Shown here in pieces: positions 1,917 to 25,266 of a stretch of 29,393 bases of DNA. The notes below the pieces were generated by a model. It saw only the letters and a program-made list of their open reading frames with translations. It was not told the DNA's origin and made no database searches. Both the position numbers and the translations under genes were made by a program. Where the stretch lies: positions 1 to 29,393 of IMG/VR virus record IMGVR_UViG_3300045135_002039, one strand, 5' to 3'. This stretch comes from a virus. Position 1 is the first letter of the stretch; the number at the start of each line of letters is the position of its first letter.

Positions 1917-2516
1917 ATGAAATTAAATAATCTAAATAAAGTAATCTTAACTGACTGTGATGGCGTTCTCATGAATTGGGAATACGCTATGAATGTATGG
2001 ATGCAATCTCAGGGATATAAGATTGTTGAAAATGGTCAAGAACATTACGATATGGGTGACCGTTATGGTTTAGATAATGAATTGAAAAAACGACTTGTTC
2101 GTCAATTCAACGAATCCGCCGCAATGGGATTTTTGCCTCCTCTTCGTGATGCTATGTACTATGTTGACTTGCTACATCGTAAGCATGGCTATACTTTCCA
2201 TATGATTACATCTCTATCAAAAGATGAGCATGCTCAAAAGCTACGTATTCAAAATACTCAAAAGCTATTTGGTGAAACTGCATTTACTAAATTTATCTTT
2301 GCCGATACTGGTGCTGATAAAGATGATGTACTAGCTCCTTATATCGGTAGTGGTCTTATTTGGATTGAAGATAAGTTTGAAAACGCTGAGCTTGGAGATC
2401 GTTACGGCCTTGAGTCAATTATGGTTGAACACGCTCATAACATGAATAATGATAAGTTTCCAACCTTTGCTAAATGGAGTGAAATCTATGAGTACATCAC
2501 TGGCGAGTCTGCTTAA
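1917..2516 (+). CDS. HAD-fold phosphatase, possible 5'-nucleotidase
   Basis: A 199-residue protein of the haloacid dehalogenase superfamily. The nucleophile motif TDCDGVLMNW places D13 and D15 at the N-terminus. The DxDGVL form followed by W recalls the 5'(3')-deoxyribonucleotidases and related phage proteins. A basic stretch after ITSLSKD and the IWIEDK segment fit motifs II to IV. Its substrate is unknown; nucleotide salvage or sugar-phosphate hydrolysis for the following glycan genes are both possible. The start at 1917 is chosen over 1902 because AAAGGA stands 6 bases before it. Promoter 1 is directly upstream. Confidence 0.65.
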   Translation: MKLNNLNKVILTDCDGVLMNWEYAMNVWMQSQGYKIVENGQEHYDMGDRYGLDNELKKRLVRQFNESAAMGFLPPLRDAMYYVDLLHRKHGYTFHMITSLSKDEHAQKLRIQNTQKLFGETAFTKFIFADTGADKDDVLAPYIGSGLIWIEDKFENAELGDRYGLESIMVEHAHNMNNDKFPTFAKWSEIYEYITGESA

Positions 2517-2745
2517 TCTTCGAAGTGAGTATGAAGATATTATTCGACGTTATCGTATTCCAGATCAATACAAGAATGGATGTATAGATAGTCTCGAATG
2601 GTTTACTAAAAACGGTAAAGGTTCTAATAGACTTAGATCCCAATATGATCGTGCCATTGAAATTGCAAATATTATTTTAAAAGAATATGAAAATGAAACG
2701 GGTAATCTATCAAGTCTACGTGGGCAAGAGATCGCGGCTCTATGA
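2488..2745 (+). CDS. Conserved-looking hypothetical protein
   Basis: An 85-residue, largely helical, charged protein that overlaps the end of the phosphatase gene by 29 bases and the start of the following glycosyltransferase by 59 bases. The start at 2488 has a GGAG upstream in AAATGGAGTG. No motif recognised. Position alone links it to the glycan cassette. Confidence 0.6.
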   Translation: MSTSLASLLNLRSEYEDIIRRYRIPDQYKNGCIDSLEWFTKNGKGSNRLRSQYDRAIEIANIILKEYENETGNLSSLRGQEIAAL

Positions 2746-3490
2746 TCATTGTGTTGAATCAGTAAAAGAATATTGTAAAGCACATAATATTGAACACGTA
2801 GTTCAAACACAACCAATCCTCAAAATTAAACCTGATGTCTTTGCTACAAATCGTAGTAAAGAATCTTATGAAAAGCATGGTGGGTTTCTTCCAATCTTTG
2901 AGAAGGAAAACGCTTTTACGTATCTAAAGACTAATGATCAGGTTGCAATCATTGATGCTGATATTTGGATTCGTCCAGGTGCTTCTAATATCTTTGACAA
3001 AGTACCAGAAGAATATGATTTTGGCGGAGTCTTAGAACGTGATATGCCTTGCACTCCACAATATCTTCGTAAGATCGCAAACTATACTCGTATGCAATAT
3101 GGTATGTCACCGCTTAATCAACTATTTGATTGGAAACATCCAAGCGGAGCAGGTGCAGATTTCTATAATATGGGCATGATGGTATTAAATAAAGGCTTTG
3201 AGAAATATCTCAGAGGGCAAACTCCTATGCAATTTTTAATGCGACCAGAGTTTAAAGTCTTTATTGATGGAATGGGAAATTGGAAATGGTCAACAGATCA
3301 AACTCTACTTAATGTCTTTGTAAAAGAAAGTAAGATGAATGTAAAGAACCTAACGTACCATTGGAATGGTTTATTTACTGGAATTGAAATGGATCGAATT
3401 CCTGAATGTAATTTTGTACACTTCTTTTTGAAAGATAAACTACCAAATCGTGGTGAAAACGTAGAGGAGCTCATGAAATATGTTAATTGA
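2687..3490 (+). CDS. Glycosyltransferase, GT-A fold, GT8-like
   Basis: A 267-residue protein with a DAD metal and sugar-nucleotide binding motif in IIDADIWIRPG (residues 90-92), a FYNMGMMVLNK segment like the NSG/NAG motif of GT8 enzymes, and a late histidine in FVHFFLKDK. Together these suggest a retaining sugar transferase using a nucleotide sugar. Acceptor and donor are unknown. It begins a run of overlapping accessory genes and overlaps the next gene by 11 bases. A second ATG at 2693 is an alternative start. Confidence 0.65.
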   Translation: MKMKRVIYQVYVGKRSRLYDHCVESVKEYCKAHNIEHVVQTQPILKIKPDVFATNRSKESYEKHGGFLPIFEKENAFTYLKTNDQVAIIDADIWIRPGASNIFDKVPEEYDFGGVLERDMPCTPQYLRKIANYTRMQYGMSPLNQLFDWKHPSGAGADFYNMGMMVLNKGFEKYLRGQTPMQFLMRPEFKVFIDGMGNWKWSTDQTLLNVFVKESKMNVKNLTYHWNGLFTGIEMDRIPECNFVHFFLKDKLPNRGENVEELMKYVN

Positions 3491-4166
3491 TAAAAAAATC
3501 TTTGTACATATTCCAAAGAATGCAGGAATGACTATTCGCCATAGTCCATTTCTAAAAGATAAAATTATTGTGAATACTGCTCAAACTCATAAAAGCCGAG
3601 AATATACTCAACAGCTTTTAGATAAAATGGCAATTACTGGAGATCATCATGGAATTGAACACGCTCGTTGGAGAGACCTTAACCCAACCTATACATCCCG
3701 TTATGGTGCTTTTGCTGTGGTTCGTAATCCTTGGGATCGGGTCGTTAGTCGTTACTTTTTTGCAAAAAAAGTTATCGAAGTTGAAAAGAAAATGGACCCA
3801 TCATATGCAGACGTTTCTAGCTTTGATGCCTTTTTAGAAGAACGACATAAATGGGGAAATGAATCATTTATGTGGCATAGAGCCGTCCGTGGTTGGTATC
3901 CAGCATTCGATCATGTAAGTGATGAGCAAGGTAATGTTAAATGTGATATATTACGCTTTGAACATTTAAATGAAGATCTTATGGCATATTTTAAAATTCC
4001 ACAAATGTCTCGTGCACGTAATGTTACTGCTTTAAATCCGGGAAATTATTTAGATTTATATACAAAAGAAACTAAACAAATTGTAGCTGATTGGTACGCT
4101 AAAGATATTGAATATTGGGGCTATGAATTTGGATATGGCCCTACTAAAAATTGTTGGGCATCATGA
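3480..4166 (+). CDS. Carbohydrate sulfotransferase-like protein
   Basis: A 228-residue cytosolic protein of the PAPS-dependent sulfotransferase superfamily (Sulfotransfer_2 type). The phosphosulfate-binding loop HIPKNAGMT lies at 10-18 and the 3'-phosphate motif VVRNPWDRVVSRYF at about 80-93, giving R82 and S90 as expected contacts. It would move a sulfate from PAPS to a hydroxyl, most likely of a sugar, since neighbours on both sides are glycosyltransferases or methyltransferases. It overlaps the next gene as ATGA. Whether the target is a host surface glycan or a phage particle is not visible. Confidence 0.78.
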   Translation: MLIDKKIFVHIPKNAGMTIRHSPFLKDKIIVNTAQTHKSREYTQQLLDKMAITGDHHGIEHARWRDLNPTYTSRYGAFAVVRNPWDRVVSRYFFAKKVIEVEKKMDPSYADVSSFDAFLEERHKWGNESFMWHRAVRGWYPAFDHVSDEQGNVKCDILRFEHLNEDLMAYFKIPQMSRARNVTALNPGNYLDLYTKETKQIVADWYAKDIEYWGYEFGYGPTKNCWAS

Positions 4167-4729
4167 TACGATTTAAAACAACAGAGATTTTCGAAAGTGT
4201 AAAACACTTCCATGATGAAATTAGAAAATGCCAGGAAAATGCTCATGGTAAAGCATATACCGCGCAACACGATGCTATTATAAAATATGGAATTGAATGT
4301 GAAACATATAGAGAACTTGGTATTATGCAAGGAGCTACTGCGGCAGCTGCAGTAGTAGCTGGATTTAAAGATCTACATTTAATTGATACCGATTTAAAAA
4401 ACTTTAATGAGTTTAAACCAATCTTCGAAAAAGAAAATATAAAAATAAAAGTCGATGGTAAATCTTCAACTTCATATAGATCCGAAGATTTACCTGAAGT
4501 TGATTTTCTTTTAATTGATTCTTTACATGTTCCTGGACATTTAAAACAAGAATTAAAAATACATGCACCACGAGTGAAGAAATATATATTATTTCATGAT
4601 ACATTTACTAAAAAATCTTTGCATAAAGAAGTTTTATTTTATATTAAAATGAGACCACAATGGCAATTAGTTGAGTATTATGAAAAGAATGTCGGTTACA
4701 CATTGATTAAAAGGATTAGTGATGAGTGA
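4163..4729 (+). CDS. Class I SAM-methyltransferase-like protein
   Basis: A 188-residue Rossmann-like protein. ELGIMQGATAAAA fits a glycine-rich cofactor loop (motif I), LHLIDTDL an acidic motif II, and VDFLLIDSLHVPGHL plus KKYILFHDT the later strands seen in TylF/cephalosporin-hydroxylase-type methyltransferases. Methyl transfer to a sugar hydroxyl is plausible but unproven. ATG 4163 overlaps the sulfotransferase stop (ATGA) and is preferred to the upstream TTG at 4151. Confidence 0.55.
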   Translation: MIRFKTTEIFESVKHFHDEIRKCQENAHGKAYTAQHDAIIKYGIECETYRELGIMQGATAAAAVVAGFKDLHLIDTDLKNFNEFKPIFEKENIKIKVDGKSSTSYRSEDLPEVDFLLIDSLHVPGHLKQELKIHAPRVKKYILFHDTFTKKSLHKEVLFYIKMRPQWQLVEYYEKNVGYTLIKRISDE

Positions 4730-5348
4730 GCTCGGAGATTTATTTAATAAGTATGGGTGTGATAAAACACGCAAACATCAGTATGAAAAAGTGTACGAAC
4801 CATATTTAGAACAATTTAAAGATAAAGAAATTAATATCCTTGAGGTTGGCGTATTTAATGGCCATAGTACTGAAGCCTTTCATGAATTTCTTCCAAAAGC
4901 AAATTTATATGGTTTAGATATTTTTGTCCGTACTCGTGCAGAAGATCTTGAATGCTATAAAAAAGATCGTACTCAATGGATTAAAGCAAGTAGTATTGAT
5001 CCGTCAACTCCTCGTCTTATCAAAGAAAAATTTGGTAATGTGAAATTTGATGTAATCATTGATGATGGTTTACATACTCCTCAAGCAAATAAAATGACGT
5101 TTCGATATTTGTCTCCACTTCTAAAAGATGATGGAGTCTTTTTTATTGAAGATGTTTGGCCATTAGAATCTATGTCTATGAAAGAATTAGAACACCCCTG
5201 GCTACGCAATCATCCAGATCGATATAATCAATTAGATAATAATATGTTTTTGACTGAAATCGAAAAATCTGATATGACTATTAAACGTCACGATAATCGT
5301 AACTTAACAGGACAACCAGATAGTTATATTATTGAGTTAGCAAAATGA
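4722..5348 (+). CDS. Class I SAM-dependent methyltransferase
   Basis: A 208-residue methyltransferase with a clear SAM loop ILEVGVFNGHSTEAF near 40-54, an acidic residue after LYGLDIF, and DVIIDDGLHTPQANK followed by GVFFIEDV. This arrangement resembles the sugar O-methyltransferases of the MycE/TylF type. It overlaps the previous gene by 8 bases and the following GT25 gene by 4. Probably decorates a glycan built by its neighbours. Confidence 0.7.
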   Translation: MSELGDLFNKYGCDKTRKHQYEKVYEPYLEQFKDKEINILEVGVFNGHSTEAFHEFLPKANLYGLDIFVRTRAEDLECYKKDRTQWIKASSIDPSTPRLIKEKFGNVKFDVIIDDGLHTPQANKMTFRYLSPLLKDDGVFFIEDVWPLESMSMKELEHPWLRNHPDRYNQLDNNMFLTEIEKSDMTIKRHDNRNLTGQPDSYIIELAK

Positions 5349-6043
5349 AAGCATTTGCAATTACATTAGATGGTAATACTACATCAGAAGCGGCGACTGA
5401 AGAATTAATTCGGTCGTCGCATCACGTTGGAAATGATTTTGTTGTGGTTCCCTTTCATGCAGTTAGACCTGAAAATGCTGAAAAAGATTTACGAGCAGAA
5501 GGTTTAATCTGGACTTATCCTTGGTCCCAGCCTAAGATTGATCTAGCTTCTGGCCTTACACTATCTCCATATAGAACTACTGATAAAAGAAAACGTATCG
5601 GTTGTTTTATGAGTCATTATAAACTATGGCAAGAATGTGAGAAATTACAAGAAGATATTTTAATTTTAGAACACGATGCGCTGTTTACAAACAAGTTAGA
5701 ATATGATATAATGAATAATAATTACGGAATAATTGGTATTAACGATCCTCGTGGAGCAACTCGTAAGTCAATGGTATATCATACGATGATACAAGAAAGT
5801 CGATACCCAGTACAATCAGTACCTCGTATAGATGCTGATATGGTTCCACAAGGATTAGCCGGAAACTCTGCATATATAATCAAACCTTGGGCAGCTACTG
5901 AAGTTATTAAGAGAGTTAAACAACTTGGAGCATGGCCTAATGACGCTATGCTTTGTTATCAAAATTTCAGAGCAAACTTTTTAGGCGTAACAAAGAAATA
6001 TTATACAAAGGTACAGGGCACACCCTCAACGACTACATTATGA
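5345..6043 (+). CDS. Glycosyltransferase family 25-like protein
   Basis: A 232-residue protein of the LPS-type GT25 family. It starts with an ITLDGN strand and has the diagnostic block RIGCFMSHYKLWQ followed about 15 residues later by ILILEHDALF, whose EHD is the nucleotide-sugar and metal site. A late segment NSAYIIKPWAA matches the family's core. GT25 enzymes add galactose or glucose to lipopolysaccharide cores. The next gene is a diverged copy of the same family, overlapping as ATGA. Confidence 0.75.
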   Translation: MKAFAITLDGNTTSEAATEELIRSSHHVGNDFVVVPFHAVRPENAEKDLRAEGLIWTYPWSQPKIDLASGLTLSPYRTTDKRKRIGCFMSHYKLWQECEKLQEDILILEHDALFTNKLEYDIMNNNYGIIGINDPRGATRKSMVYHTMIQESRYPVQSVPRIDADMVPQGLAGNSAYIIKPWAATEVIKRVKQLGAWPNDAMLCYQNFRANFLGVTKKYYTKVQGTPSTTTL

Positions 6044-6702
6044 TATATCCTGAACATTATGTAATTACTATTTTTGATAATGAAAAATCTAAAGAAGCAG
6101 CCGAACGTTGTATCAAATCTGGCCTACAAGTAGGAGGATTAAAGATTGAAAAGTGGAAAGCCACAACTCCGCAGGATGACATTGCGAAGATTATTAAAGA
6201 TGAGAAAATTAATACGGCTTATATGGATGAAGTTTATTCTCGGACTCCTAATTGCATTGCTGCTTTTCTTTCCCATTATAGTCTTTGGAAATTAGCTGTT
6301 GAAAAAAATAGAGAAATAACAATCTTCGAACATGATGCTGTCTGTGTGCAAAATGTTCCAACTATGATTAATTATAAAGGAGTAGTTTCATTAGGAGCTC
6401 CGTCTTATGGTAAATTTAATAATCCAACTTCATTTGGAGTTGTTCCGCTTCAATCTAAACCGTATTTCCCGGGCGCACACGCATATAGAGTAAAGCCTGC
6501 TGCTGCTCAAATGCTAATTGATCAAGCACGATTAGAAGCAAGACCTACAGATGTTTTCTTAAATCGTAATACTTTTCCGTTTCTTGAGGAATTATATCCA
6601 TGGCGGGTTGAAGCTCGTGATAGCTTTACAACAATTCAAAATCCGGTTGGATGTAAAGCAAAACATAATTTTAATAACAAATATGAGATTATAGATGTCT
6701 AA
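6040..6702 (+). CDS. Second glycosyltransferase family 25-like protein
   Basis: A 220-residue paralogue of the preceding gene: AAFLSHYSLWKLAVEK, then ITIFEHDAVC, then AHAYRVKPAAAQ, the same three blocks in the same order. The overlap ATGA with the previous stop fixes the start at 6040. The frame is open upstream, but that part lies inside the previous gene. Tandem duplication with divergence is the simplest origin. Confidence 0.75.
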   Translation: MIYPEHYVITIFDNEKSKEAAERCIKSGLQVGGLKIEKWKATTPQDDIAKIIKDEKINTAYMDEVYSRTPNCIAAFLSHYSLWKLAVEKNREITIFEHDAVCVQNVPTMINYKGVVSLGAPSYGKFNNPTSFGVVPLQSKPYFPGAHAYRVKPAAAQMLIDQARLEARPTDVFLNRNTFPFLEELYPWRVEARDSFTTIQNPVGCKAKHNFNNKYEIIDV

Positions 6703-7357
6703 TATGTCCGTTCCTGATTTAACAAGAGCATTCATGACAGGTAGTGATGCCAATACAGAATGGATGCTACCATGGTTTCTTGATAATTTCCAAAAGCATA
6801 ATACTGTTCCTATTACTGTTGTTGATTTTGGAATGACTGATAAAATGTTAAATCATTTAGAGAGTCGTGTACATTCTATTGGTAGACTAGAAACAAAAAG
6901 AAATGTTTTAACATGGCTTTATAAACCAGGTGCTATGTGGAATTCGCCATATAAAGCTACTTGTTGGATTGATACAGATTGTGAAGTCTTAGGTGATATA
7001 TCAGGTATCTTTGATGATTTATATTATGAAAAACTTCATATGGTGGTTGATCGGCCTTGGACTACTCGACATCGATCTTTAATGTATAATTCTGGTATTG
7101 TAGCATTTAAAGGCAAGCCACAAATTTTACAAAGATGGGCACAAGAATGTCATGAGAATCCTAAGCGCGGTGATCAAGAAACACTACACGCTATGTTAGA
7201 TCCTCTACAAGCAGCAATTCATATTCGTGAATTATCACATTCTTATAATGTTGTACGTTTAGATCATTTAGATAAAACTGCGCCCAAACAAATTTTAGTT
7301 AACCACTGGACCGGTCAAAAAGGTAAGGATCATATTCGGAGTTTAATGAATGAGTAA
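6695..7357 (+). CDS. Glycosyltransferase, GT-A fold with DTD motif
   Basis: A 220-residue protein with a DxD motif in CWIDTDCEVLG (D93, D95), a YNSGIVAFKG segment equivalent to the acceptor loop of GT8-type enzymes and a C-terminal NHWTGQKGK, where the histidine and GxK fit the family's diphosphate contacts. Similar in plan to the transferase at 2687-3490 but clearly diverged. Overlaps both neighbours by 8 bases. Confidence 0.65.
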   Translation: MSNMSVPDLTRAFMTGSDANTEWMLPWFLDNFQKHNTVPITVVDFGMTDKMLNHLESRVHSIGRLETKRNVLTWLYKPGAMWNSPYKATCWIDTDCEVLGDISGIFDDLYYEKLHMVVDRPWTTRHRSLMYNSGIVAFKGKPQILQRWAQECHENPKRGDQETLHAMLDPLQAAIHIRELSHSYNVVRLDHLDKTAPKQILVNHWTGQKGKDHIRSLMNE

Positions 7358-7949
7358 AGTTGCACATATTATTGGTAATGGTGATAGTCATAGATTTTAT
7401 AAGCCTGCAAAAGGTATTATCATGACTTGTAACTTGCCTCCTATTACTGGCATCACAAATGTATATGCTACTGCTATTGTAGATTTTAAAATGTGTCGTG
7501 CTATGCATGAAGGTTCTGTAGATTTACGAGCTTATGATTGGGTTATGGGCGCAAGACCTAAAAAATATACAGAAATGAAGCCTGATTTTTATATGAGATT
7601 TGCAAGACATATTAAAGAGTTTTATACGGTATTACCACGATATGCTGCTAATTATACGGACTTTAATTGTGGGCATATGTGTACACATTACGTAGCCAAC
7701 AAACTAAACTGCGATGAGATCCATATGTATGGATTTGATTCTATATTTGATTTTAATCTTGTAAGTACGACTGACTTTGTATTAAACTCAAATCGTGATG
7801 CATTTAATACTCATCGATTAGCTCAAAATTGGAGACCAATTACTGAAGGTATTTTTAGAGAATTTAAAAATACTCAGTTTGTTGTTTATCATAAACATGG
7901 TGCAGCTAAAATTAATTTACCAGAAAACGTAGAAGTACGTGTTGGATGA
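7350..7949 (+). CDS. Rossmann-like protein of the glycan cassette, unknown
   Basis: A 199-residue protein beginning VAHIIGNGDSHRF, a glycine-rich GNG-S strand-turn-helix like that of DUF115 and some sialyltransferase-like proteins, with a later DEIHMYGFDSIF segment resembling the GFD-type motif of those families. No catalytic assignment is possible by eye. It overlaps the GT-A gene by 8 bases and the peptidase gene by 4, so it belongs to the same transcript. Confidence 0.55.
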   Translation: MSKVAHIIGNGDSHRFYKPAKGIIMTCNLPPITGITNVYATAIVDFKMCRAMHEGSVDLRAYDWVMGARPKKYTEMKPDFYMRFARHIKEFYTVLPRYAANYTDFNCGHMCTHYVANKLNCDEIHMYGFDSIFDFNLVSTTDFVLNSNRDAFNTHRLAQNWRPITEGIFREFKNTQFVVYHKHGAAKINLPENVEVRVG

Positions 7950-8368
7950 TTATTGAATTCAGAGGCCACGCAAAGAAAGCCATCAAAGACGAAGTAGAAC
8001 TTGCTGCATGGTTTGTAAAAGATGAACTAATGCCTCGTCATCGTAAGATTTATATTACTATTCATTTTATGAAAAATCTACGTAAAAACGAAGGTATACA
8101 CGGTGATGTATTAGACGAAGAAGATCGTGAATATACAATCAGAGTAGATTCAAGCCAAGCTCGTAAAGAAATTATATCAACTATTATTCATGAAATGGTT
8201 CATGTTTATCAGTACGTAACTGGCAAGATGAAACAAAAATGGGTTCATGAAGTTGTCTTTGAAAAAAAGGTTTATCCATGGGATATGGAATATCAAGAAA
8301 GACCATGGGAAATTGAAGCGCATACTTTCGAAAAGGATCTGTATGCTAAATTTTATAAATATATCTAA
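7946..8368 (+). CDS. Small zinc metallopeptidase (HExxH), SprT-like
   Basis: A 140-residue protein with the zincin signature HEMVH at 82-86 in a helix IISTIIHEMVHVYQ, and a second acidic site EIEAH at 122-126 that could give the third zinc ligand. The arrangement resembles SprT-like and related phage minimal metallopeptidases. No signal peptide, so it would act in the cytoplasm. Substrate unknown. It closes the overlapping cassette begun near 2687. Confidence 0.6.
   Translation: MIIEFRGHAKKAIKDEVELAAWFVKDELMPRHRKIYITIHFMKNLRKNEGIHGDVLDEEDREYTIRVDSSQARKEIISTIIHEMVHVYQYVTGKMKQKWVHEVVFEKKVYPWDMEYQERPWEIEAHTFEKDLYAKFYKYI
8354..8361 (+). promoter_or_regulatory. T4-type late promoter octamer
   Basis: Exact TATAAATA in the last codons of the peptidase gene, about 30 bases before the ATG at 8392. 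It matches the T4 late consensus read by gp55/gp33-modified polymerase. Because it lies inside coding sequence, its use is uncertain. Confidence 0.4.
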
Positions 8369-8391
8369 GTTTAACAACGATAGGATTTTAT

Positions 8392-8580
8392 ATGGACGAA
8401 GAGGAAAGGCTTATGCCTGATGACCCTTGCGACCATATTACAGATATTACAGGATGGATATTCAGAAATGAAAAAAATAAACGATCCGGAACCCGAGAGA
8501 TACTACGAGTGGATGCTGTGGAAGATGAGGCAGGAGGATCTCAAGGAAAAAAATTTATCGGATTCGGGCTAAGTGATTGA
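8392..8580 (+). CDS. Small hypothetical protein (frame 1 of two overlapping)
   Basis: A 62-residue, acidic reading frame with TAGGA 6 bases before its ATG. It overlaps almost wholly with another plausible frame at 8420-8572. Third codon positions here are more AT-rich, as in most genes of the window, which favours this frame. No recognised motif. Only one of the two may be real. Confidence 0.4.
   Translation: MDEEERLMPDDPCDHITDITGWIFRNEKNKRSGTREILRVDAVEDEAGGSQGKKFIGFGLSD
8420..8572 (+). CDS. Alternative small protein in an overlapping frame
   Basis: A 50-residue frame too short for most gene callers. GAGGAAAGG lies 10 bases before its ATG. The product has a hydrophobic helix followed by NDPEPERYYEWMLWKMRQ, which looks more like a folded phage protein than the overlapping frame. 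Its third positions are GC-rich compared with neighbours, which argues against it. Homologue searches would settle which frame is used. Confidence 0.4.
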   Translation: MTLATILQILQDGYSEMKKINDPEPERYYEWMLWKMRQEDLKEKNLSDSG

Positions 8581-8620
8581 TCTGTAATAAAACTTTTTTT
8601 TAAAAAAATGCGTTTTTTTG

Positions 8621-8649
8621 TGTACATTCCCTTTTAGATGTGTTATAAA
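8621..8649 (+). promoter_or_regulatory. TGTACA-class promoter 2
   Basis: TGTACA at 8621-8626, 17 bases, then TATAAA at 8644-8649, preceded by TGTGT. It lies in the 92-base gap before the gene at 8673. The untranslated leader after it is nearly the same as that after promoter 3. Confidence 0.72.
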
Positions 8650-8672
8650 GGTTATATCAAAAGGAGATAAAC
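8649..8672 (+). repeat. Leader sequence shared with 17330-17354
   Basis: The stretch GGTTATATCAAAAGGAGATA and following bases just before the ATG at 8673 recurs at 17330-17354 with two extra bases (AAATAAGGAGATA). Each copy sits between a TGTACA-class promoter and the first codon and contains a strong ribosome binding site, AAGGAG. The rest of the genes differ, so the promoter-leader seems to be a copied module. Confidence 0.65.
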
Positions 8673-8966
8673 ATGACAAATTCAGCTAAAGCTTTTTGGA
8701 CTAACCCTCTAATCGAAGTAAAAACACTTTGTGATCGTACATTCAGCTATTTTGATCAAGCAAGTGAAGATCTTAAATCACTTTATCATGACGATCTAGA
8801 AGATTACCAAATTGCAATTGAATTGTTCAAGCAAGCAGATGCTGAATCGCTTGCTACTCATGTTTCTGAAATGGATACAGCCTCACGTGAGCAATTGGTC
8901 ATTGCTTTCAACGAAGACTGTGGTTCAGTTTTTGTACGTGAAATTCTTGGTTATGAGGTAGCATAA
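8673..8966 (+). CDS. Small acidic hypothetical protein
   Basis: A 97-residue acidic protein, predicted mostly helical, with no recognised motif. It is the first gene after promoter 2, with AAGGAG 8 bases before the ATG. Promoter class and position suggest early expression, where small acidic proteins often bind or modify host factors; this is inference only. Confidence 0.65.
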   Translation: MTNSAKAFWTNPLIEVKTLCDRTFSYFDQASEDLKSLYHDDLEDYQIAIELFKQADAESLATHVSEMDTASREQLVIAFNEDCGSVFVREILGYEVA

Positions 8967-8968
8967 TA

Positions 8969-9205
8969 ATGTATAAAGTTTTAGCAAGTAACGCCAAAGG
9001 CGATAAAGTAGTCGAATTTTTCAACGACGCAGAAAAGGCTGACGTTCGTCATAATCAACTTTACAATGAAGTTGATGACCGTGGTCTTTGGAAGTGGGGT
9101 ACAATCCGCACTATCAATCTTGAGTACAATCGCGATGATAGCATCACAGGTATGTTTGGAAATCGTGAAGGTATGGTTCCTAACTGTATTGCGGAGGTTG
9201 CATAA
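8969..9205 (+). CDS. Small hypothetical protein
   Basis: A 78-residue protein starting MYKVLASNAKGDKVVEFF, two bases after the previous stop, with GAGG upstream. A beta strand followed by a charged helix (FNDAEKADVRHNQL) recalls small phage proteins of unknown role. It overlaps the next start as TAATG. Confidence 0.6.
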   Translation: MYKVLASNAKGDKVVEFFNDAEKADVRHNQLYNEVDDRGLWKWGTIRTINLEYNRDDSITGMFGNREGMVPNCIAEVA

Positions 9206-9345
9206 TGTATTGGGTTGATGTAAAATTTGAAATGAGTAATAAAGAACGTTGGGAAGGCTTGACAAAGGAGCAAGCCGAAGACCTTTACGCTCATTATAAT
9301 AGACGTAACTCTGGCGCGTGGTACGTACGTATGGGTGAAATGTAA
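9205..9345 (+). CDS. Very small hypothetical protein
   Basis: A 46-residue protein, MYWVDVKFEMSNKERWEGL at the start, joined to both neighbours by TAATG overlaps, with GCGGAGG before its ATG. The pattern of strand, charged helix and strand resembles the preceding protein, so it may be a relative. Function unknown. Confidence 0.6.
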   Translation: MYWVDVKFEMSNKERWEGLTKEQAEDLYAHYNRRNSGAWYVRMGEM

Positions 9346-9692
9346 TGAGTATGCATATGATTCGTGGTGTACAAGTACACGGAAGCAAGCGTCGTAAAGC
9401 GAAAAAGAAATCAAAGTCTTTATTAAAAGCAGAAGCTGAGATGGAAAAGTTCTATACGAAAATGGGTATAGATACCAACAAGAAATCAGATTACCGTTAC
9501 GAAATACCAGAATATATGTCTGGTCCTCGAGTAACTTCTGATAAGATTTGTTCGAACGGTACAAAGAAGGATTCCGTTAAATACACTGGTAACGAAATCG
9601 CTGGTATTGTCGTTACACACAAATCTAATTTAATGCCAGTACGCAAAGATAATAAGCAAGCAGCAATTGATGCTGCTAGCATGCGAAGGTAA
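9345..9692 (+). CDS. Basic hypothetical protein upstream of the tRNA
   Basis: A 115-residue protein with a strongly basic N-terminal quarter (GSKRRKAKKKSKSLLKAE) and a C-terminal part reminiscent of small proteins in marine T4-like phages (NEIAGIVVTHKSNLMPV). The tRNA starts 6 bases after its stop, so both probably share a transcript started at promoter 2. Confidence 0.6.
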   Translation: MSMHMIRGVQVHGSKRRKAKKKSKSLLKAEAEMEKFYTKMGIDTNKKSDYRYEIPEYMSGPRVTSDKICSNGTKKDSVKYTGNEIAGIVVTHKSNLMPVRKDNKQAAIDAASMRR

Positions 9693-9698
9693 ACGAAT

Positions 9699-9775
9699 CT
9701 CCACTTAGCTCAACTGGATAGAGCAGCTGACTTCTAATCAGCAGGTTGAGGGTTCGAGTCCTTCAGTGGAGGCCA
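9699..9775 (+). tRNA. tRNA-Arg, anticodon UCU
   Basis: A complete cloverleaf. The acceptor stem CTCCACT pairs with AGTGGAG at 9765-9771, the D arm starts GCTC, the anticodon stem is GCTGA/TCAGC with loop CTTCTAA and anticodon TCT at 9733-9735, and the T loop is TTCGAGT. Discriminator G and an encoded CCA end at 9775. It reads AGA and AGG. The GGAGG of its 3' acceptor strand lies 6 bases before the ATG of the next gene. Confidence 0.95.
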
Positions 9776-9778
9776 AAA

Positions 9779-9958
9779 ATGTGGACATTAGTTTTTATAG
9801 TAATAATGGAACAAGAAGTAGTAGCAACAAATGTAGGTACGTTCGATACTATGTATGAATGCTTTGCTAATTGGAATGATTTATCTGTAACAGCTGGTGG
9901 CGAAAAGGGATACTATCCTGCAAATATGCAGGCAGTATGTGTAAAAAGAGAAGAGTGA
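9779..9958 (+). CDS. Small membrane-anchored or secreted protein
   Basis: A 59-residue protein with a hydrophobic N-terminus (WTLVFIVIM) and two later cysteines, the second in MQAVCVKRE. Marine T4-like phages carry many such short proteins of unknown role. The ATG lies 3 bases after the tRNA CCA, and the only good Shine-Dalgarno is the GGAGG inside the tRNA acceptor stem. The longer frame from 9746 would begin inside the tRNA and is rejected. Confidence 0.6.
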   Translation: MWTLVFIVIMEQEVVATNVGTFDTMYECFANWNDLSVTAGGEKGYYPANMQAVCVKREE

Positions 9959-9960
9959 AC

Positions 9961-9968
9961 TATAAATA
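9961..9968 (+). promoter_or_regulatory. T4-type late promoter octamer
   Basis: Exact TATAAATA in the 25-base gap before the ATG at 9984, with a start point expected near 9974 and TAGGAG just before or after it. It would drive the cluster of small membrane and secreted proteins up to 11162. Confidence 0.65.
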
Positions 9969-9983
9969 TTTAGGAGTTATAGT

Positions 9984-10085
9984 ATGATTGAATATCTTAA
10001 AAATATGCACTGGAAATGCATTTATGGAACGGTCGCTTTGATTGTAATTGGTTTCTTGTTAGGACAACTATATGCCTTGGCCTAG
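9984..10085 (+). CDS. Small single-pass membrane protein
   Basis: A 33-residue protein with a charged start and one hydrophobic segment, VALIVIGFLLGQLYAL. TAGGAG is about 10 bases before the ATG and a late promoter lies just upstream. It overlaps the next gene by 14 bases. Possible lysis or membrane role by size and timing only. Confidence 0.6.
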   Translation: MIEYLKNMHWKCIYGTVALIVIGFLLGQLYALA

Positions 10086-10167
10086 AAAGAATCGCCCACG
10101 TCCAGGACGTCGTAAAATCGGATCAGCAAAAAGGAAAGCTCGTAGAGCGAGGAGATCAAAGAAATGA
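10072..10167 (+). CDS. Tiny arginine/lysine-rich protein
   Basis: A 31-residue frame, MPWPRKNRPRPGRRK at the start; roughly half of all residues are Arg or Lys. It overlaps the previous gene by 14 bases and the next by 4 (ATGA), so it fills the gap exactly. AGGACAACT lies upstream as a weak ribosome site. Nucleic-acid binding is possible; no family recognised. Confidence 0.5.
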   Translation: MPWPRKNRPRPGRRKIGSAKRKARRARRSKK

Positions 10168-10664
10168 AAACTATAGCAACCGCCGCACTTATTGCAATGA
10201 CTGCCACTACAGCTATGGCGGAAACTGTCAGAGCAAAAATTACTCGTGTACAACCAAATTATGGTTATCGTGAAGTAAATATGCCAGTTCAACGTTGTGA
10301 AAATGTTGAAGTTCCGGTATATGGAACAGTACAAGGCGGCGGTGCTACAGGTGGTGATGTACTTGGCGGTATGATTATTGGTGCTCTTCTCGGTAAAGGT
10401 GCTACTGGTGATAGTAATGGTGCTCAAGCTGGAGCAGTTTTAGGCGGCATTATTGCGGCTGATAAAAAAAGAAATCAACAAACTATTGTTGGCTACAAGA
10501 CAGAACATCAGTGTCATACACTAATCACTACTGAAACTGAACGGTATATTAAAAATAATAAAATTTGGTTTACATGGAACGGTATTGAAGGTACGGCTTA
10601 TACCTACAATAATTATCGCGCCGGCCAAACTATTACAGCTACCGTAACTTTACAGGCAAACTAA
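10164..10664 (+). CDS. Glycine-zipper envelope protein with signal peptide
   Basis: A 166-residue protein with a classical signal peptide (MKTIATAALIAMTATTAMA, probable cut after A19), then a strand-rich segment, a glycine-zipper hairpin at about 60-97 (GGDVLGGMIIGALLGKG and GAQAGAVLGGIIAAD), and a C-terminal beta region. The plan resembles the 17 kDa surface antigen/glycine-zipper outer membrane family, and no lipobox cysteine is seen. It would go to the periplasm or outer membrane of the infected cell. Superinfection exclusion or lysis help are possible roles. GGAGATCAAAG precedes the ATG. Confidence 0.7.
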   Translation: MKTIATAALIAMTATTAMAETVRAKITRVQPNYGYREVNMPVQRCENVEVPVYGTVQGGGATGGDVLGGMIIGALLGKGATGDSNGAQAGAVLGGIIAADKKRNQQTIVGYKTEHQCHTLITTETERYIKNNKIWFTWNGIEGTAYTYNNYRAGQTITATVTLQAN

Positions 10665-10924
10665 TGTCAGACATGTTTGATTTTGGCTTTACTGCCGTAG
10701 ACGAAGATGAATTGCAGGCAGTGCAGCAAACAGCTGCACTTGCCAGCGATGCAGAACAATTAGCAACCACTACTCAAGAGAGATTAGATAAACTATACAA
10801 CGCTATTATCCCATTGTTGAACAATTTAAAAAAGAATCCTGAAAAAGATTATATTCTTTGGCCTAATAGACTTGATAAAGTAGAAGAGTTTGAAACTCAT
10901 TTACAGGAGATTTACAAAGGATGA
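10664..10924 (+). CDS. Conserved marine T4-like phage protein, unknown
   Basis: An 86-residue acidic helical protein: MSDMFDFGFTAVDEDELQAV, then heptad-like segments and the C-terminal part ILWPNRLDKVEEFETHL. I recall similar proteins from cyanophages and related myoviruses, without known function. The TAATG overlap with the preceding secreted-protein gene shows co-translation. Confidence 0.7.
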   Translation: MSDMFDFGFTAVDEDELQAVQQTAALASDAEQLATTTQERLDKLYNAIIPLLNNLKKNPEKDYILWPNRLDKVEEFETHLQEIYKG

Positions 10925-10928
10925 TCTT

Positions 10929-11162
10929 ATGGATCCAGCAACAACGTACGGAATGTTTACAGCATTAATTTTATTCTGTAACGTATTTAATGGCGAATGT
11001 AAAGGATTAGCTAATCCAGAAATATATCCAACACTTGAACAATGTTTAGTAAGTGTTGCAGAAGGTGTGGTTATTATTGAACAAGAACCTACTCTTCAAC
11101 TAATAAAATATGAATGTTATGAATGGGTAACTGAGAAAGATTTAAAAGGTTTAGGTATTTAA
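10929..11162 (+). CDS. Small secreted or membrane protein with cysteines
   Basis: A 77-residue protein with an early hydrophobic segment (YGMFTALILFCNVF) and cysteines spaced along the chain, the last in YECYEW. It resembles in plan the small proteins at 9779-9958 and 11159-11341. The ATG at 10929 follows AAAGGATG. Its stop overlaps the stop of the opposing gene. Confidence 0.6.
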   Translation: MDPATTYGMFTALILFCNVFNGECKGLANPEIYPTLEQCLVSVAEGVVIIEQEPTLQLIKYECYEWVTEKDLKGLGI

Positions 11163-11341
11163 TCTTTTACAGTTTCTGGTATACAGTACGCACGAATCGG
11201 TGGAGATCCTGTATACGTGAAATTTAATTCTCTTGCCATATATGTACAATCAGAAAGTTTTGCGAAATAGACTCGATCAGCTATTTCTTCACCTTGGCTT
11301 TGTATTATCAAAACAAAATATATGACACCGAATTCTATCAT
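11159..11341 (-). CDS. Small membrane-anchored protein
   Basis: A 60-residue protein with an N-terminal hydrophobic helix (FGVIYFVLII) and a short outer part with two cysteines, ending RAYCIPETVKD. The layout is very like that of the protein at 9779-9958 (FDTMYECF ... AVCVKRE). Last gene of the minus-strand operon, coupled to the gene before it by a 4-base overlap. Confidence 0.6.
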   Translation of the reverse strand: MIEFGVIYFVLIIQSQGEEIADRVYFAKLSDCTYMARELNFTYTGSPPIRAYCIPETVKD

Positions 11342-11577
11342 TTTTTAACTTCTGGTATTCTCAATATTTTATGAGCAAACCATTTTAAAAAACGTTTCAC
11401 AGTATTGACAATCCATTCATTAAAGAAATGTCGGATTAGTCGTACAATAATAAGAATCGGTGAGTAGATAACGTCAAAGATCAAGAGCAAAAGATCTACC
11501 ATAAGATCTATGATACTGTCAACATTCCATAGCTCTTGTAATTTCTTTTTGATTTTTGCTCTTGTCTTTTTAAACAT
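11338..11577 (-). CDS. Basic membrane protein, holin-like size
   Basis: A 79-residue protein with a basic N-terminus (MFKKTRAKIKKK), a long hydrophobic or amphipathic stretch at about 22-48 (IIDLMVDLLLLIFDVIYSPI) and a basic C-terminus. Size and charge pattern allow a holin or antiholin, but no family is recognised. Joined by ATG/TAA overlaps to both neighbours. Confidence 0.6.
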   Translation of the reverse strand: MFKKTRAKIKKKLQELWNVDSIIDLMVDLLLLIFDVIYSPILIIVRLIRHFFNEWIVNTVKRFLKWFAHKILRIPEVKK

Positions 11578-22667: not shown

Positions 22668-24374
22668 TTAGAATGGCGAAGCTAATAGGTTAAAATTATC
22701 AGTTGTTGGAGTAGTTGCAACAGTACTTGTTGAAGTACTCGTATTTTGAGAATTATTACTTTGATCGACCTGATTAATTACAATTGGCGGTAAAGCGCCA
22801 CTTAATGCTGATAGAGCAGCTTGGGCTTCATTATAAGCCATGGCTGTCTCGCTATCTCTAGCAGCAATTCTGTTATCTCTATCAAGATTTCGAGAAGATA
22901 TACTTTGAGCAGCTGCAGCTCTTGTTGAAGCATCTCCTAATCCAAGTTCAAATCCAGGAATAACTGTAAATTGTTTACCACCATTCATCCATTCTGGCAG
23001 CCAGTCTGGAACTTTACCTTTTACTTCCGGAAAACTAAACTGTAAGTTTTCTGAAAGCATAATGTATAAGTTATCACCTAAGTTATTAATGAATGTTGCT
23101 ATTCTATCAAAAGAATTTTTAAACCCATTTACAATACGTGTTATTTGATATTGCACTTGAGTCACAACTATATCTTTTAATATAGTAAATGAATCACCAA
23201 CGGTACCAAGAATGTCTGTAATACCAGATTTAAATCCGGCAAATTTTTCATTAAACATAGTAAAGTCGCCTTTAATCATATTGACGACCATTTGAATATT
23301 ATCAAATATTCCTTGAACTGTTCCAGAAATTAAATCATCAAAACTAAAGCTTTTAAATTTTTTCATAAACCAGCTATCTTCGCTTACGCCAAGATAATTA
23401 GTCATTAACCAACTAATACCTGATTTTAATAAATCAAATGGTGCACCAACAAAATCGCCAAGGAAAGCGCCAATACCCTCACCTAATCGTGATATGAGTC
23501 CTTCTTTATCACTGTTTATAAATGTATTAACGCCATCAAAAGCAGAGATTATAAATCCAATCGGCCAAAGAATTTTTTGTGCAACTTTTAAAATACCTTT
23601 TGCTCCACTACCAATAACGTCAGTAATTTTTGTGAAGAACGGAGATGTAAAAAACTCTCCCATCAATTCTCCGGCTTTAGTGATTGGCCTAAATAAGCTT
23701 TTAATTTGTAAAATAAATCGACCAATTTTTGGAGATTTAAAGTCACCTCCTTCACCAGCCAATGCAATCAATTTACCATCAGCACCAATTCCAAATTTTA
23801 ATAAAATTTTATCTACAAGTTTGTTATATACATCGCCAATAAGAGCTACAGGATTTTTAATCTGAATCTTCTTGTTTGTTTCAGGATCTATTTCAGTAGG
23901 AAGTGCTGGGTTAATTCCAAAAAGTCTAAGTATTTTTGCTCTAAGATTAATTATTGCTTGTGTAATATTTTCAGTAACAGATGTAGGAATAAGAGCTTTT
24001 ATTCCGTCACCCAATTTACCGATGTTTTCAATAGCTTTGAGTTCCCAGCCTCGAAGACCAGCAAATGCTCCTGCTACAGCTAAAGCTCCTGCAGTAATAC
24101 CGGCTACAAGAGAAGCAATTCGTGCAGCTGTTGCTGCAAGGGCTGAAAACATTCCTTCTCCTGGAAGAGAGATGTTTGGACTATATCCTTCGCCCTTGGC
24201 TCTTGGAGCTTGGACTTTTGGGCCTTTTAGTTTATCTAAAGATCCGTAATCTTCTTTTTTAAAACGAGCAACAAAAACATTTGTAAGCGCCTGGACTGCT
24301 CCAGTCGTTTCTTCTTGAGATTTGTTATTTATCCTGATCTGTTGTACGAGATCTTTTAATGTAGCTTCTGCCAT
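22668..24374 (-). CDS. 29: Tail tape measure protein, gp29-like
   Basis: A 568-residue protein placed and built like a tape measure, close to the length of T4 gp29 (about 590 residues). It has an N-terminal coiled region, hydrophobic segments at about 76-106 (LAATAARIASLVAGITAGAL within it) and near 275-290 (ILWPIGFIISAFDGV), a long helical middle, and a low-complexity Ser/Thr/Asn end (NNSQNTSTSTSTVATT). The protein would fill the tail tube, set its length and help DNA passage. Its ATG overlaps the stop of the gp51-like frame, the usual order of chaperone then tape measure. Confidence 0.72.
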   Translation of the reverse strand: MAEATLKDLVQQIRINNKSQEETTGAVQALTNVFVARFKKEDYGSLDKLKGPKVQAPRAKGEGYSPNISLPGEGMFSALAATAARIASLVAGITAGALAVAGAFAGLRGWELKAIENIGKLGDGIKALIPTSVTENITQAIINLRAKILRLFGINPALPTEIDPETNKKIQIKNPVALIGDVYNKLVDKILLKFGIGADGKLIALAGEGGDFKSPKIGRFILQIKSLFRPITKAGELMGEFFTSPFFTKITDVIGSGAKGILKVAQKILWPIGFIISAFDGVNTFINSDKEGLISRLGEGIGAFLGDFVGAPFDLLKSGISWLMTNYLGVSEDSWFMKKFKSFSFDDLISGTVQGIFDNIQMVVNMIKGDFTMFNEKFAGFKSGITDILGTVGDSFTILKDIVVTQVQYQITRIVNGFKNSFDRIATFINNLGDNLYIMLSENLQFSFPEVKGKVPDWLPEWMNGGKQFTVIPGFELGLGDASTRAAAAQSISSRNLDRDNRIAARDSETAMAYNEAQAALSALSGALPPIVINQVDQSNNSQNTSTSTSTVATTPTTDNFNLLASPF

Positions 24375-24568
24375 TAGCTTTTACCTACGTTTCTTTCTCT
24401 TGCTCTTTCATTCTCTTCTTTAATATGTTCAATCAATAATGTAAGATATATTTCCCTTTCCCATGGTATCATATTCTCAAGTTCAGTTAATGAGTAATTA
24501 TGATGCTGCATTAATCCAAAATTAGTTTTATAGTAACTAATTAGGCTTTCATGAGAAAGGCATATTAC
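24374..24568 (-). CDS. 51: gp51-like tail chaperone domain, read by -1 frameshift
   Basis: A 64-codon frame in the -1 frame of gp26, starting at the slippery site and ending on the tape measure ATG (TAATG). The product is helical: HESLISYYKTNFGLMQHHNY, then SLTELENMIPWEREIYLTLL and a charged end. No ATG, GTG or TTG occurs before codon 20 (ATG at 24511), although the protein-like pattern begins at codon 6, so independent initiation would lose conserved-looking sequence. The most likely product is a gp26 fusion of about 297 residues. The gp51 label rests on gene order and size class in related phages. Confidence 0.65.
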   Translation of the reverse strand, partial: VICLSHESLISYYKTNFGLMQHHNYSLTELENMIPWEREIYLTLLIEHIKEENERARERNVGKS

Positions 24569-24574
24569 AAAAAA
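24546..24574 (-). promoter_or_regulatory. Probable -1 programmed frameshift signal
   Basis: The gp26 frame ends GAT TTT TTG TAA. The heptamer T TTT TTG (24574-24568, minus strand) is in the exact X XXY YYZ phase needed for a -1 slip. Eight bases after it comes a hairpin, CTTTC / GAAAG with loop TCAT (24559-24555 with 24550-24546), a normal distance for a stimulating structure. The zero-frame stop directly follows the heptamer. Confidence 0.7.
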
Positions 24575-25266
24575 TCATTCATCCCCTGTAGTTCAAGTGT
24601 GTTATCATGTGTACAACCACCACATTTAAATTCTACTTTATGTTTTAGTTGTGGCATTGCATCGACAAATTCTCTAATCTTATCAAATTGTGGTCCACTC
24701 AAGGATTCAATAAATTCTAAGACTTCAGACTCTGGTTCGTCTTTCACCATGATTCTTTCTTCACCCGATTCAATAGTATCAATACATCTTAGAATCATTT
24801 TAAATGTCATTTCAGTCTGAGATGTAAATTTGCTTAAGTCTAAAATATCATTATATCGTGGCCAACGTAAATTAACAGCGATTGTATCAGTTAATTCTAT
24901 TCGAGTATTTACTTTTGGTACGTCTATTTTTATTTCTTCTACCGGAATTACGACTTCATTTGGAGTTTCGCACTCAGAACATTTAAGAGATACTTTAGTT
25001 GTTTCTCCAACAGATTTTGCTCTAATTCGTGTAAAAAGATATTCAACATCAAATGTTGTAAGTTTATTTCTATCTACACCATTTTCTACACATGAATCAA
25101 TAGTATCGACGACTGCGTTTAAAGCTTGTTGCTGATCTTGAGATTCCATTGCAAGCATTAATACTTTTTCTTCTTTTACAAGATACGGCCTAAACCGCAC
25201 TTTTTCTTGAGTCGAAGGAATTACCGTTTCATATTGTGGTACATTATTTAATTTAGGTAAGGCCAT
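24565..25266 (-). CDS. 26: gp26-like baseplate hub or tail chaperone protein
   Basis: A 233-residue protein of the T4 gp26 (T4 baseplate) type. Two CxxC pairs, CSECETPNEVV and CGGCTHDNTLEL, suggest a zinc ribbon split across the chain; N-terminal segments RFRPYLVKEEKVLMLAMESQ are typical. In T4, gp26 is needed for hub assembly. Here the gene sits between a tube-family protein and the tape measure, the place of lambda gpG, and ends in a slippery heptamer. ATG 25266 with GGAG upstream is chosen over a TTG at 25281. Starts by TAATG overlap. Confidence 0.75.
   Translation of the reverse strand: MALPKLNNVPQYETVIPSTQEKVRFRPYLVKEEKVLMLAMESQDQQQALNAVVDTIDSCVENGVDRNKLTTFDVEYLFTRIRAKSVGETTKVSLKCSECETPNEVVIPVEEIKIDVPKVNTRIELTDTIAVNLRWPRYNDILDLSKFTSQTEMTFKMILRCIDTIESGEERIMVKDEPESEVLEFIESLSGPQFDKIREFVDAMPQLKHKVEFKCGGCTHDNTLELQGMNDFL

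Follow-up and report, generated by a model that had tools for sequence, protein, structure and literature searches.

The G-T frameshift is conserved in long-tailed phages, with T4 as the exception (2016 review, PMC5009743). In phage lambda, the tail tube and tape measure genes flank the coding region of a short and a -1 frameshifted long chaperone (PMC5009743), and the locus described below shares this layout; its proteins belong to a different family, for which no sequence similarity to G/GT is claimed, and ratio and binding, established by experiment in lambda, are predictions for the present system. The E/E+E' pair of phage P2 has the same T_TTT_TTG heptamer, in the same phase and just upstream of tape measure gene T; a preliminary description of our locus had rightly named this heptamer, as P2 E reads GGT TTT TTG TCG at its annotated frameshift site, although P2 E encodes only 91 aa and its stop lies several codons past the heptamer. 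Bacteria are known to have Shine-Dalgarno (SD)-type stimulators located 5' of -1 frameshift sites (PMC4066793; dnaX in PMC3711429). In Escherichia coli dnaX, an upstream SD sequence is combined with a slippery heptamer and a downstream hairpin (PMC3711429), a combination that recurs in cyanophage relatives of our locus, the differences being that the dnaX heptamer is A_AAA_AAG and that the clade of our locus has a weak or absent hairpin and a stop after the heptamer.

Within the T4-like phages themselves, tail assembly chaperones were the subject of Vladimirov, Gautam and Davidson (2022, Virology 566:9-15, doi 10.1016/j.virol.2021.11.003), as cited in passages of PMC10885494 and PMC12846349. 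With reference to that work, the latter passage treats polyT runs as known -1 signals in T4-like TAC-N genes (PMC12846349), and the former, from the PRFect paper, states that some T4-like phages have one short and one long fused gene (PMC10885494). The TAC genes concerned pair the same gp26-type TAC-N with the same gp51-type TAC-C as our locus, under the same explanation. Thus, the central idea of a frameshifted T4-like chaperone was already known, and the novelty that the preliminary description had implied does not hold, the phenomenon having been published for T4-like phages in 2022. The abstract of that study is said to report frameshifting as conserved or inferred in several T4-like groups, with T4 itself using genes 26 and 51. 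The clade of our locus and its stop-adjacent arrangement may or may not be new relative to that study; the SD-like element and the Ackermannviridae variant set out below are possibly new details, with the element possibly the most useful addition. In the open literature we found no paper on the baseplate hub assembly catalyst with a frameshift. What is at stake is that a very abundant group of ocean viruses probably controls tail assembly by a ribosomal slip known from lambda and P2.

The window, by which we mean the whole stretch of DNA analysed, is a 29.4-kb IMG/VR viral fragment in which profile matches identify T4-type genes for the gp32 single-strand binding protein, tail tube, DNA end protector, head closure, tail tube cap and baseplate wedge proteins. 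The tail tube gene, on the minus strand, is followed there by gp26, a -1 frame extension and a 568-aa gene (Table 1), upholding the lambda-like order of tube, gp26, gp51 and tape measure that had been proposed, with the last gene assigned from phrog_305 (E 1.7e-6) and other tape measure PHROGs, all weak. The gp26 gene ends GAT TTT TTG TAA, which sets the heptamer in slippery phase next to the stop. Following a slip, reading would continue as GTA ATA TGC CTT ... and add 64 codons, giving a 297-aa fusion (TAC-NC) with the junction ...NDFL-VICLSHESL.... In this frame, no ATG, GTG or TTG occurs before the ATG at 24511, which lies about 19 codons from the beginning. The phase of the heptamer, the 64 open codons, the TAATG ending on the tape measure gene and the lack of start codons until about codon 20 had all been read correctly in the preliminary description; the extension, there called protein-like from codon 6, is indeed protein-like, but its gp51 match runs from the first codons on. 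Furthermore, a TGA closes the -1 frame immediately 5' of the heptamer in the window, such that the frame could be entered only by a slip at the heptamer and not from an upstream start. TTTTTTG is common in this AT-rich window without being enriched (14 found, 19.6 expected), and the heptamer was rejected as stand-alone evidence; conservation and position are therefore the test that counts. On the evidence that follows, we assign a probability of about 0.93 to a -1 programmed frameshift which would let one gene yield two tail-assembly chaperones, one short and one long.

Table 1. Coordinates of features at the gp26-gp51 locus of the window
Feature	Position	Strand	Remarks
Tail tube protein gene, 195 aa	25266..25853	-	phrog_45 tail tube, E 8.5e-32
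gp26 / TAC-N, putative short chaperone form, 233 aa	24565..25266	-	PF12322, phrog_150
SD-like AGGGG, centred ~12 nt upstream of heptamer; candidate stimulator	24583..24587	-	anti-SD duplex -6.5 kcal/mol
Slippery heptamer T_TTT_TTG, 0-frame phase	24568..24574	-	in-phase T6N in 85/86 relatives
gp26 stop TAA, adjoining heptamer	24565..24567	-	stop-adjacent in 40/85 relatives
Junction peptide of predicted gp26-gp51 fusion			NDFLVICLSHESLISYYK
-1 frame TAC-C / gp51 domain, 64 codons	24377..24568	-	phrog_634; pN/pS 0.42 before first ATG
CTTTC-TCAT-GAAAG hairpin, 8 nt after heptamer	24546..24559	-	not conserved
-1 frame stop TAA, overlapping downstream ATG (TAATG)	24374..24376	-	
Putative tape measure protein gene, 568 aa	22668..24374	-	weak PHROG matches and position

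Profile matches place gp26 and its extension in the T4 gp26/gp51 family. The former matches PF12322 (T4_baseplate, E 6.8e-62) and phrog_150 (E 1.7e-66); the last 47 residues of the latter match phrog_634, the 'baseplate hub assembly catalyst' or gp51 family (E 3.7e-20), and the extension also matches the C-terminal end of phrog_150. T4 gp51, a protein of 249 aa which is essential and needed for assembly, yet absent from the final particle (PMC3004832), contains PF12322 over residues 1-201 (E 3.9e-52) and aligns with phrog_150 from end to end (E 2.6e-84), also where the window's -1 product matches that profile, whereas T4 gp26 covers just the first part of that profile. From this coverage it follows that T4 gp51 would be equivalent to the gp26-gp51 fusion, but encoded in a single frame, and T4 gp26 to the short form, the two being homologous to the whole fusion and the short form, respectively; the comparison thus favours the earlier proposal that the T4 pair is the counterpart of lambda G/GT, and two proteins long of uncertain role in hub assembly would correspond to long and short chaperones. 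T4 differs in having two divergent genes and no heptamer at the end of gene 26. PF12322 gene copies number two in T4 and RB49 and one in each of eight other records tested; with the window being a 29-kb fragment, its own lack of the two-gene arrangement rests on these counts in relatives. A vestigial heptamer in T4 gene 26 was considered and rejected, the gene ending GAG TTC TTT GAG TTA CTA TAA, with no heptamer left. AlphaFold models of the window's gp26 (pLDDT 85) and of a T4-type gp51 (pLDDT 82) have the same predicted order of secondary-structure elements, to which gp51 adds three C-terminal helices. Sequence searches of the PDB gave no significant homolog, and a Foldseek search of it with the gp26 model gave no significant match. 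The HK97 tail assembly chaperone 2ob9 had the highest listed probability for gp26 (0.75, but E 0.47), a suggestive hint of a similar fold and nothing firmer; the T4-type gp51 model returned nothing useful from the same database and no match to the HK97 chaperone.

Alignment of related marine T4-like phages, which had been proposed as a check on the frameshift, came out in its favour. Loci were collected from IMG/VR scans and named phages with no condition set on the heptamer (182 in all, 86 after dereplication), and 85 of the 86 dereplicated relatives have T_TTT_TTN in phase, either at the gp26 stop or close to it, and leading into a gp51 domain in the -1 frame. These 85 fall mainly into two clades, and they span phages of cyanobacteria, Pelagibacter, Methylophilales, Pseudomonas, Stenotrophomonas, Rhizobium, Sinorhizobium, Agrobacterium, Aeromonas, Vibrio and Acidovorax. 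All of them carry the extension, about 57-71 codons long when complete, and the stop follows the heptamer directly in 40, after one codon in 43, and after two and eight codons in one locus each. Elsewhere in the same genes, a T6N in the same phase occurs at just 13 of 19,235 codon positions. The codon before TTT may be GAT, AGT, AAT, TCT or GCT, such that the residue varies (D, S, N, A) and the wobble base does not: it is T in 85/85 loci where the genes' own codon usage would give 0.65, and Phe is likewise always encoded by TTT (85/85, against a predicted 0.73), figures that take no account of shared ancestry and so express a contrast and not an exact probability. Two marks of a lambda G/GT-type system are present here: the short gene has a conserved slippery site close to its end, and the frame that overlaps it has no start of its own.

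How the start-less stretch evolves could be followed in 25 loci in which the heptamer is followed by 18 or more codons free of ATG, GTG and TTG. For 16 codons that fall entirely between the gp26 stop and the first ATG, pN/pS was 0.42, compared with 0.39 beyond that ATG; with synonymous differences near saturation, these values are ratios of raw proportions. Read in either of the other two frames, the same stretch gave 1.1-1.3 and ran into stops. Three loci in the set are one codon out of register, which can only raise pN. By this comparison, the start-less stretch of the -1 frame is evolving as protein.

The strongest competitor, though a very improbable one, is that gp51 is a separate gene with its own start, an ATG past the gp26 stop (24511 in the window) that ribosomes would reach through translational coupling or by re-initiating. 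Database records do list separate gp51 genes, some with the start placed at an internal ATG (Mosig, Syn1, Milchi) or within TAATG (KVP40, EniLVp02), TAATG is also found in three ackermannvirus loci, and in KVP40-like, Rhizobium I46 and P-SSM2-like loci an ATG lies within 2-3 codons of the heptamer on its 3' side, where separate initiation is possible. Such a gene, however, would not explain why the stretch before the ATG is as constrained as the rest in the 25 loci or why the wobble bases of the heptamer are invariant; start positions vary among relatives while the reading frame runs unbroken from the heptamer, and a start at 24511 would lose the conserved FF..LSHESL block. In the P-SSM2-like loci, furthermore, about 26 nt separate the SD-like element from the ATG, too great a distance for initiation. 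The heptamer and an ATG overlapping the stop do occur together in KVP40-like phages, Rhizobium phage I46 and Agrobacterium phage Atu_ph04, where both routes could therefore operate.

For the programmed frameshift, the same SD-like element is a candidate stimulator. When 9-nt windows were scanned against the anti-SD end of 16S rRNA, pairing energy showed a sharp dip with its centre 11-12 nt 5' of the heptamer (mean -6.8 kcal/mol), and 75% of loci attained -5 kcal/mol or lower at that position compared with 3.7% elsewhere in the genes. The conserved L-E/Q-G peptide encoded here accounts for part of the motif. Yet synonymous recoding with each gene's own codons gave -4.81 kcal/mol (sd 0.14) against an observed mean of -6.37, a strength matched by 0 of 400 recoded sets, and the Glu codon at the element is GAG in 40 loci versus GAA in 12, the reverse of whole genes (GAA 1335, GAG 497). 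Judged by these recodings, the element is conserved beyond amino-acid need, and a role in stimulating the frameshift, for which it is a candidate, is directly testable.

Downstream structure divides the loci. The CTTTC/GAAAG hairpin on which the preliminary description had drawn is present in the window, 8 nt past the heptamer, but is broken in relatives 77% and 70% identical; RNAalifold found no consensus structure in 20 members of the window clade, nor did that clade have conserved structure by z scores against dinucleotide shuffles (z -0.62). This hairpin is thus not one that the relatives have in common. Where a single codon separates heptamer from stop, as mainly in cyanophages, there is a hairpin signal (mean z -2.45, against about -0.4 in controls). 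Their hairpins differ in sequence and lie in nearly the same place (about 14 bp in S-PM2, for example), a placement that suggests selection for structure. In the window-type clade the stop comes directly after the heptamer and no hairpin is conserved; there, slow termination may take over the pausing role of the hairpin.

These elements also bear on transcriptional slippage, a rival rated slightly below a separate gp51 start, in which RNA polymerase stutters on the T run and the mixed mRNAs give two proteins. A run of six T is short for efficient slippage of this kind, and exactly six are present in 65 of the 85 loci; the other 20 have 7-8 T when the stop is counted. T runs can cause such slippage, a possibility raised for UUUUUUU in PMC4066793. 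Run length disfavours it here, and an anti-SD-pairing element at fixed spacing, together with the cyanophage hairpin, are features of ribosomal and not transcriptional events. Least credible, at the very bottom of the scale, is that the heptamer arises incidentally from a conserved Asp-Phe-Phe C-terminus and T-rich codons, beside a decaying or unused -1 frame: the motif G..[DSN]FF is conserved, and hexamer and heptamer are common in the window's AT-rich DNA, but T at both wobble positions in 85/85 loci, the protein-like constraint that pN/pS reveals in the -1 frame, and a -1 product that is the conserved C-terminal domain of essential T4 gp51 all contradict it.

Under the programmed frameshift, then, most ribosomes would terminate at the stop that follows TTTTTTG, giving the 233-aa short form (gp26, TAC-N), whereas a minority, with tRNAs on TTT and TTG, would slip back one base in vivo, resume at GTA and add 64 residues to make the 297-aa long form (gp26-gp51, TAC-NC). 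By analogy with lambda G/GT, both products would act as chaperones: the tape measure protein would be coated by many short and few long copies, the long ones recruiting tail tube subunits through their C-terminal domain. The comparative evidence supports such a gp26-gp51 fusion as it had originally been proposed, and the frameshift would also account for gp51 being misannotated or missing in many phage records. Cyanophage gp51 has been described as about 20% of the length of other gp51 proteins and without about 200 N-terminal residues (Sullivan et al. 2010, PMC3037559), probably because the frameshift supplies the residues that seem to be missing. A wider synthesis is offered tentatively, at somewhat less than even odds: in marine T4-like phages, an internal SD 10-13 nt upstream of T_TTT_TTN would work together with an adjacent stop in the window clade or a hairpin in cyanophages, Ackermannviridae would slip at T_TTC in place of the heptamer, and the T4 lineage would have split a single frameshifting gene into two paralogues.

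The T6 heptamer is absent from Ackermannviridae (18 IMG/VR loci and Dickeya phage Kamild). Their gp26 genes keep GA[AG] ATT TTC AT[TC] TAA at the end, and a gp51-like -1 frame of 50-54 codons, mostly without ATG, is conserved, which suggests that these phages slip at T_TTC as a variant site.

Annotation of gp51 is uneven across phage records. The gene is missing in DSL-LC03 and S-CAM1, starts at an internal ATG in Syn1, Mosig and Milchi, and has its start placed on the gp26 stop or shortly behind it in KVP40 and S-PM2; a joined frameshift CDS is absent from all these records. As a separate observation, Synechococcus phage S-CREM2 has two very long adjoining virion genes after gp51 (2484-11555; 1565 and 1456 aa). 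Their summed 3021 aa, at 0.15 nm per residue, correspond to about 453 nm, the reported tail being 418 nm, and the pair may together act as a split tape measure.
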